Of a DNA stretch of 64,000 nucleotides, positions 11,388 through 12,281 are shown piece by piece. How positions within the stretch are numbered: position 1 is the first letter of the stretch; every line of letters begins with the position of its first letter. The position numbers and the translations under genes are program-made. The DNA is from a virus. The stretch covers positions 1 to 64,000 of IMG/VR virus record IMGVR_UViG_3300008267_000005; one strand, given 5' to 3'. Under the pieces are notes generated by a model that did not search any database, was not told the DNA's origin, and worked only from the letters and a program-made list of their open reading frames with translations.

Positions 11388-11557
11388 CTTTCTTTCAATT
11401 TTTAATCTACACTTTGGAATTCTTTACTTTTTTGCCAGTATAAATTATGAGTTCTTTGAAATACTGGTTGGTTGGGAATTAGGGGCTAGCACTAGCAAGA
11501 AATGCCAATCGTAAAAACAGATGTCCACACCCCCATCTTCTGTTTTCCTTTGAATAT
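11388..11557. other. AT-rich intergenic region with hairpin
   Basis: No gene seen. AAAACAGA (11515-11522) and TCTGTTTT (11539-11546) form a hairpin followed by CCTTT, possibly a terminator or processing site before the tRNA-like gene. Confidence 0.4.
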
Positions 11558-11731
11558 AGTCAGGTGGCGGAATAAGGCGCTTTGGGCCTTGGTAGACGCT
11601 TATTGACACGCACGGCAACCGAAATGTAAAAGCGCTCAATGATTAGGCAATGCGAATGATGAAGAACACTACCTCACTGTGCGTAGGTAAATTTCAAAGT
11701 GTTCATACAGGTTCGAATCCTGTCCTGACTA
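11558..11731 (+). tRNA. tRNA-Leu-like gene with large insertions, 174 nt
   Basis: The acceptor arm pairs perfectly (AGTCAGG 11558-11564 with CCTGACT 11724-11730, discriminator A). The T-arm is canonical (ACAGG TTCGAAT CCTGT). The D-arm reads GCGGAAT then TTGGTAGACGC, the Leu pattern, but with about 16 extra nt (AAGGC...GCCTT hairpin) inside the D-loop. Between D-arm and T-arm there are about 100 nt, far more than the usual 32, and I cannot assign an anticodon. It could be a degenerate tRNA, a tRNA with an intron-like insertion, or a tRNA-mimicking RNA. The 3' 20 nt recur at 1513-1532. Confidence 0.6.
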
Positions 11732-12034
11732 CAATGAGTAAGAGATACTCAGAGTCTTCGAATCAAGACTTTAAGAATGATTCCGCAGAATGTCTACGGC
11801 GCGAGTGGGACATCATGGGAATAAAGGAGAGCGACACACCTCCTCCCAGTAGTGTTGGATGTTTTCAACGGGTAAGACCAACAGGTTTTTAAGAAATAGA
11901 AAACCGATATATCTACTCACCAGTAATCTCAAGGTGGGAAAAACACAGAGTGGCGCAGGTTGATACTACTTTGCTAGTAGATTGATACAGAGTAAAAAGA
12001 GGTGGGGGAAACCACTCATTAACCCACCCAATTT
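11732..12034. ncRNA. possible structured RNA between tRNA-like genes
   Basis: No convincing protein gene. GGTGGG at 11933-11938 and again at 12001-12006 can each pair with CCCACC at 12023-12028, giving two exclusive folds. CTACT/AGTAG forms a small hairpin near 11965-11980, and AGTGGCG precedes it as in the flanking tRNA-like genes. ATTC-CGCA-GAAT is another small hairpin near 11780. It may be part of one transcript with the tRNA-like genes. Confidence 0.3.
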
Positions 12035-12176
12035 GATCGAGTGGCGGAAGTGGGATGATTCTAGATAATTATCTCCTGGTAGACGTAACGAGGTTATAGC
12101 CTTGTGGTAAAAAAAGCATTGAAAAAATGCGGTCACTATAATGACAGCTGTGAAGGTTCGAATCCTTCCTCGATCA
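12035..12176 (+). tRNA. tRNA-Leu-like gene with D-loop insertion, 142 nt
   Basis: The acceptor GATCGAG (12035-12041) pairs with CTCGATC (12169-12175), discriminator A. The T-arm is GAAGG TTCGAAT CCTTC. The D-arm is GCG-GAAG...TGGTAGA-CGT; removing 26 nt (12051-12076), bounded by direct repeats TGG, restores a canonical Leu D-loop. The anticodon region ACGAG-GTTATAGC-CTTGT gives a loop of 8 or 6 nt rather than 7, and two extra hairpins (GCATT/AATGC, GTCA/TGAC) follow. The anticodon is uncertain. It shows the same kind of anomaly as the gene at 11558. Confidence 0.6.
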
Positions 12177-12281
12177 CTACAATATTAAACCCCTAAAAGT
12201 TCGAGGATTTTATTCTGTGGTAATATCAGAATAAAGAAATTGTTATTATTCCAATCCTTAGCATAAGGATCATTTTTTCTT

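Follow-up and report, generated by a model that had tools for sequence, protein, structure and literature searches.

Engineered tRNA scaffolds carry recombinant RNA in place of the anticodon arm, and tmRNA combines tRNA-like ends with internal pseudoknots. YrlA is a tRNA mimic bound to a Ro60 homologue; its ends form the Ro-binding stem, while its tRNA-like part is a cap. Among phage RNAs, RNA C of T4 (rnaC or species 1 RNA; AF158101, positions 70908-71046), which is stable, has been an orphan since the 1970s. According to the respective papers, RNA C is transcribed late and was detected on Northern blots (PMC9697503), its role is stated as unknown in both 2010 and 2022 (PMC3014915, PMC9697503), and a change was fixed in rnaD, the neighbour of RNA C, during the evolution of a T4-like phage on a host new to it (PMC12685909).

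Here we describe two tRNA-like genes, TLS1 and TLS2, located in a window of 64,000 nt that forms part of an IMG/VR virus record of 174,942 bases (Table 1). Both genes possess the 7-bp acceptor, T arm and D arm of a decoding tRNA, and the perfect acceptor and T arms and the Leu-type D arm that the initial annotation had recognized are indeed kept. Its two further observations, insertions in the D-loops and overlong anticodon/variable regions, were also borne out: the spacing from TGGCGGAA to TGGTAGAC is 17 nt in TLS1 and 27 nt in TLS2, against a D gap of 1 nt in the normal-size Leu tRNAs L183 and L106 from related loci, and that from TGGTAGAC to GGTTCGAATC is 112 and 70 nt, respectively, against interiors of 29 and 33 nt in these tRNAs. 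The D-loop inserts of both genes form hairpins and are not random sequence; the TGG repeats reported to bound the second insert are present, and a search for further signal in them returned none. The pattern consisting of the D arm, insert and T arm of TLS2 had 0 matches in 100 shuffles of the window. As a single sequence, TLS2 folds better than its shuffles (z -2.97, 0/200), and the TLS1 fragment 11558-11699, which does not include the 3' strands, folds no better than its own (z 0.49). Neither ARAGORN nor Rfam at gathering thresholds produced a match anywhere in the window. Exact matches to the T4-like late-promoter motif TATAAATA occur once on the plus strand and four times on the minus strand of the window, none of them immediately preceding the locus on the strand it occupies, and domain searches with ten neighbouring proteins revealed nothing bearing on the RNAs.

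Table 1. Predicted features of the locus, in window coordinates.
Feature	Position	Strand	Detail
u, conserved element immediately 5' of TLS1	11450..11549	+	16 homologues
TLS1, predicted non-decoding tRNA-like RNA	11558..11732	+	arm pairing; model R1, 71.4 bits; anticodon-arm test
TLS1 acceptor	11558-11564 / 11724-11730	+	AGTCAGG/CCTGACT, 7/7 pairs
TLS1 D-stem	11567-11569 / 11597-11599	+	
TLS1 D-loop hairpin module (AAGGC..GCCTT)	11574..11590	+	without counterpart in homologue L254
TLS1 interior, putative payload P1	11603..11704	+	covariation including kissing pair; free-standing copies
P1 kissing strands	11608-11613 / 11679-11684	+	ACGCAC/GTGCGT
P1 helix	11664-11670 / 11698-11704	+	GAACACT/AGTGTTC
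TLS1 T-arm	11707-11723	+	T-stem 5/5 pairs
TLS1 tail	A73 11731, C74 11732	+	
m1, conserved structured RNA in the TLS1-TLS2 interval, distinct from both, ~210 nt	11734..11942	+	33 homologues in related islands
m2, second conserved RNA of the TLS1-TLS2 interval	11940..12031	+	6 homologues; identity 81-98% where aligned
TLS2, predicted non-decoding tRNA-like RNA	12035..12177	+	arm pairing; model R1, 71.7 bits; anticodon-arm test
TLS2 acceptor	12035-12041 / 12169-12175	+	GATCGAG/CTCGATC, 7/7 pairs
TLS2 D-stem	12044-12046 / 12084-12086	+	
TLS2 D-loop hairpin module	12052..12076	+	class relatives have different D modules or none
TLS2 anticodon-position hairpin CGAGG[TTATAG]CCTTG	12089..12104	+	stem covaries in class; loop 12094-12099 is a predicted kissing strand
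TLS2 variable-region module	12109..12145	+	A7 run, then hairpins 12116-12130 and 12132-12145
TLS2 second kissing strand, loop CTATAA	12136-12141	+	within hairpin 12132-12145
TLS2 T-arm	12152-12168	+	T-stem 5/5 pairs
TLS2 tail	A73 12176, C74 12177	+	

Scanning IMG/VR for an insert-bearing Leu D arm together with a T arm, a pattern that left the acceptor and tail free, returned 49 viral-contig stretches; the patterns for the common acceptor AGTCAGG and for compact forms returned at least 120 stretches each, that for longer interiors 16 and that for the TLS2 class 29. The compact AGTCAGG RNAs (89 distinct out of 115) are 61-90 nt long and have other D arms, several displaying shrunken anticodon-position hairpins when read by eye. 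A search of 84,980 prokaryote species genomes with the AGTCAGG pattern retrieved 5 stretches. The genomes concerned, two of Chitinophagaceae and three of other taxa, were all assembled from metagenomes, and each holds 2-4 matches to model R1; they give a weak hint that the host may belong to the Bacteroidota. For one neighbouring gene, the two best annotated cultured matches come from the large phages Mosig (38% identity) and S-SRM01 (30%), which we take to be T4-like.

The family is accessory in its distribution. The downstream neighbour of the window locus is a metallophosphatase gene, and among 80 loci with that gene, 74 had at least 1.9 kb of upstream sequence, none of which contained an R1 match exceeding 100 nt at E <= 0.1; a match of that length was present somewhere in 10 of 20 records picked without a family pattern. 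A canonical tRNA lies within 400 nt in 194 of 530 family records, on the same strand in all 194, and 336 records are without one. C74 is encoded by 432/435 canonical tRNAs and 454/459 family members, having been fixed by the compact-form search pattern for part of the latter. One 8-kb array (L356:4100-12210) holds about 20 tRNA-like or tRNA genes together with a copy of m1 and a free-standing P1, and in another related array a tRNA gene (L179:5164-5434) is interrupted by a group I intron (Rfam RF00028, 61 bits). Whole TLS arrays were compared with cultured phages, and among the matches listed (20 of 2,174 and 15 of 59) we found ordinary tRNAs or unannotated sequence; blastn retrieved no match to the window locus from the phage collection, nor was a description of such a family found in open-licence PMC full text. 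Because ARAGORN misses most of these genes, calling 26 of 165 family members, and members without a D insert can score as plain tRNAs in Rfam, phage tRNA counts may mix two different things.

Counting G-U as a pair, the acceptor is fully paired (7/7) in 31 of 39 distinct sequences, the window pair included, and C74 is encoded in 34 of them, with weak acceptors in some members (L098, 2/7 pairs; L088, 4/7; L109 and L134, 5/7 each). Covariation was assessed in 34 of the 39, five having been dropped, four of those with weak acceptors. In this set 99.2% of 510 acceptor and T-stem cells are paired, and 63 cells display double changes versus 8.8 (sd 2.6) in shuffles; double changes are seen in 7/7 acceptor pairs and 4/5 T-stem pairs, and sliding the partner by 1-3 columns lowers pairing to 31-41%. 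This covariation indicates that acceptor pairing is under selection, in agreement with the earlier view that random decay is unlikely. Broken acceptors in a few members and the 3' remnant at 1410-1533 are what decaying tRNA pseudogenes might leave behind, but covariation throughout the acceptor and in most of the T stem, together with covarying interiors, makes it extremely unlikely that the family consists of such relics. The 53 distinct D-loop inserts also exceed expectation in structure, their mean longest stem being 6.60 versus 5.02 (sd 0.14) after shuffling (0/100).

A canonical anticodon arm (5-bp stem, 7-nt loop, U33) was detected in 9 of 224 distinct Leu-D members, as opposed to 29 of 30 canonical-size Leu-D tRNA controls in related loci; it was found in neither TLS1 nor TLS2, which are not among the nine positive members. 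TLS1 and TLS2 very probably belong to a widespread and very variable family of phage RNAs in which a tRNA chassis is kept without a decoding arm, so that the initial annotation was apt in describing them as possible tRNA mimics. It had also considered that they might be decoys for host anticodon nucleases. Decoys, or resistant substitutes, might be expected to be phage-borne, tRNA-like and present several times per genome, as these RNAs are; however, the canonical arm is absent from 215 of the 224 members, the loop is paired in many, and that of TLS2 takes part in a predicted kissing pair, which renders this role improbable. The RNAs could still serve as decoys for a different factor that binds tRNAs.

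The anticodon arm appears to be replaced by a pseudoknotted interior module that pairs a loop of the anticodon region with the loop of the variable arm. In 118 of the 154 members, out of 165, that passed a length filter, the T stem is preceded at a distance of 1-4 nt, usually 2, by a stem of 4 bp or more. Pairing of the variable-arm loop with the upstream region scores 5.33, compared with 4.98 (sd 0.10) for loops exchanged between members (0/200), an average effect, many single members being without a clear pair. In TLS2 the loops TTATAG and CTATAA are predicted to form a 6-bp kissing pair. The anticodon-position stem covaries in 4 of 6 pairs among 19 aligned sequences of the TLS2 class (of 29 stretches); the invariance of UUAUAG/CUAUAA in this class is no evidence, since the search pattern fixed those strands.

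The interior of TLS1, P1, recurs inside a chassis in L254, which has another acceptor and no D hairpin, and in L271. It is also found outside any chassis (L104/L110, L213, L319, L322/L356, L358 and L123), and in five of these six free forms a tRNA-like RNA lies upstream, its position 74 immediately followed by the first nucleotide of P1. Model R3, applied to 200 loci that contained nearly all its training copies (L322 as copy L356), located P1 at 9 places, 3 in a chassis, 5 abutting a chassis 3' end and 1 apart, of which one (L213) was new. Across the helix and kissing pair of 8 aligned copies, 97.5% of 119 cells are paired, with 23 double-change cells versus 7.2 (sd 2.3) in shuffles (0/500). 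The kissing strands, which the search left free, read by eye as ACGCAC/GUGCGU, as ACGAGAG/CUCUCGU in L358 and as ACAGG/CCUGU in L123; P1 has no match in Rfam. Since other phages have copies outside the chassis in which the loop-loop pairing is kept by compensatory changes, P1 is, as far as comparative evidence can tell, an autonomous RNA grafted into a tRNA chassis.

The structure of the interiors also bears on the possibility, raised at the outset, that the genes are spliced. Intron-bearing tRNAs would account for extra sequence in the anticodon region, a known intron site, but here several sites carry insertions at once, and the interiors, which lack an anticodon arm, consist of structured modules that are conserved and in one case occur outside the chassis as well. 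Moreover, Rfam detects no intron family in the window, in contrast to the L179 gene serving as a positive control, and the same genome already has four ordinary tRNAs at 100-101 kb (Arg, Met, Ile and Leu, by ARAGORN). Splicing is accordingly a very unlikely explanation.

D-loop hairpins and interiors assort independently. The 224 members form 170 clusters by interior and 25 by D insert; of the interior clusters, 27 comprise at least two members, and 11 of the 27 occur with two or more D-loop states. One type of D hairpin combines with 22 interiors, and the TLS2 interior (two clusters, 16 members) combines with several D modules or none. The chassis, composed of the acceptor, the T arm and usually a Leu-type D arm, is a carrier of exchangeable D-loop and interior modules. 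Alternatively, the chassis itself could be the active part, the RNAs being non-decoding Leu-tRNA sinks or donors, charged by the LeuRS of the host or bound by EF-Tu, in which the interior just blocks decoding. The LeuRS of E. coli does not read the anticodon, and the Leu-type D arm with its GG intact, the A73 of most members and the abundance of Leu-D members are all compatible with such an activity. Nevertheless, we regard it as unlikely: A73 does not hold throughout, GC and TC tails also occurring, many members have non-Leu D arms, and conserved interiors associated with varied D modules, one even outside any chassis, would not be expected.

Three other conserved RNAs, u, m1 and m2, accompany the two genes in their island. 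The 3' hairpin of m1 covaries, and its loop AAUCUCA complements the 5' loop AAGAGA, a putative kissing pair read by eye; m1 has no match in Rfam 15, and no sequence similarity to T4 RNA D (L422:1554-1672) was noticed by eye. The closing helix of m2 is GGTGGG/CCCACC, and u has the sequence GCCAATCGTAAAA..GATGTCCAC..CCATCTTC, with a 3' half that is best conserved and a 5' half that is variable among homologues. Elsewhere in the window, the apparent 3' remnant of another family member mentioned above (R1 21.6 bits, E 0.064) ends in CCTGTCCTGACTACT, which overlaps the end of an open reading frame.

We propose that these phages carry exchangeable modules on a tRNA chassis, mature the resulting RNAs as tRNAs and use the payload to act on a host factor, and we assign a probability of about 0.45 to this proposal as a whole. 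The RNAs would be released from precursor transcripts via the tRNA maturation route, with RNase P generating the 5' end; they would be expressed, have discrete ends and receive CCA, and their 3' signature is the same as that of the phages' real tRNAs. The tRNA shell may protect the RNA and let tRNA-binding proteins hold it, and the payload would act in trans, its likeliest role, at a guess, being to bind and disable or distract a host protein of RNA binding, translation or defence. A role of the payloads against the host, which we advance tentatively, would explain their diversity and modular exchange, the several copies per genome and the accessory distribution. If payloads do bind host factors, every one of them is a lead to a host target.

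Comparison with YrlA draws attention to a Ro60/TROVE-like gene of 540 aa in the same genome (about 97.4-99.0 kb; L467:1058-2680), which the ordinary tRNA cluster follows at a distance of roughly 1.1 kb. Genes of this kind occur in 6 of 49 related records, this genome included, and in another large phage (L472:1195-3003) a TLS2-type RNA gene lies ~36 nt downstream of the Ro60-like gene. The RNAs might hence be phage Y RNAs acting as scaffolds for a phage-encoded Ro60-like protein, an idea that we demote to a doubtful alternative because the adjacency is confined to one near-identical lineage (G019, G032, G045) and is absent in the present genome, where no family member stands beside the Ro gene. 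In addition, 43 of the 49 records, many of them fragments, are without a TROVE gene, and no Rfam Y-RNA family matches. TLS1 and TLS2 resemble YrlA in being tRNA mimics that do not decode and in having a Ro60-like gene in the genome, but their ends form a tRNA acceptor. With tmRNA they share tRNA-like ends and pseudoknots inside, yet they keep an intact D arm and measure 141-173 nt; tmRNA identity was rejected, none being reported by ARAGORN in the window or by Rfam. As in engineered tRNA scaffolds, a foreign RNA module replaces the anticodon arm, although the TLS RNAs are natural, providing a case of an RNA module carried in a tRNA shell, and would additionally join the anticodon region and variable arm by a loop-loop pair.

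The closest described counterpart is T4 RNA C, likewise a phage RNA with a tRNA T arm encoded in a tRNA cluster. Its variable-arm hairpin stands two nt before the T stem, and the 6-nt loop of this hairpin, CGUCAA, can pair with UUGACG in the loop of the hairpin before it; TLS1 and TLS2 also combine a T arm with a variable-arm loop complementary to an upstream loop. Furthermore, RNA C adjoins RNA D, a second and non-tRNA-like RNA, as TLS1 adjoins m1. Conversely, RNA C lacks a Leu D arm, its acceptor has two U-U mismatches, its interior includes a long helix, its N73 is other than A, and its score with model R1 is low at 18 bits (E 0.0018 over 4 kb). RNA C seems similar in build to the family, the link resting on topology. 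In 11 Tevenvirinae homologues, T4 included, retained from 13 loci after leaving out L432 and L434 (match at the T-arm end only) and L431 (no match), 99.1% of the cells are paired and 20 display double changes versus 6.4. The kissing strands are invariant across all 11, including phage Melville, in which the surroundings of the first loop have been replaced and the stem is kept through double changes. With some hesitation, we suggest that large tailed phages maintain a fast-changing library of natural tRNA-scaffold RNAs, in which recombination exchanges D-loop hairpins and autonomous payloads on a standard tRNA chassis; the tRNA machinery of the host would process these RNAs, the phages would use them against host factors, and T4 RNA C would be a cultured representative; the family offers comparative leads on RNA C, and T4 a cultured model.
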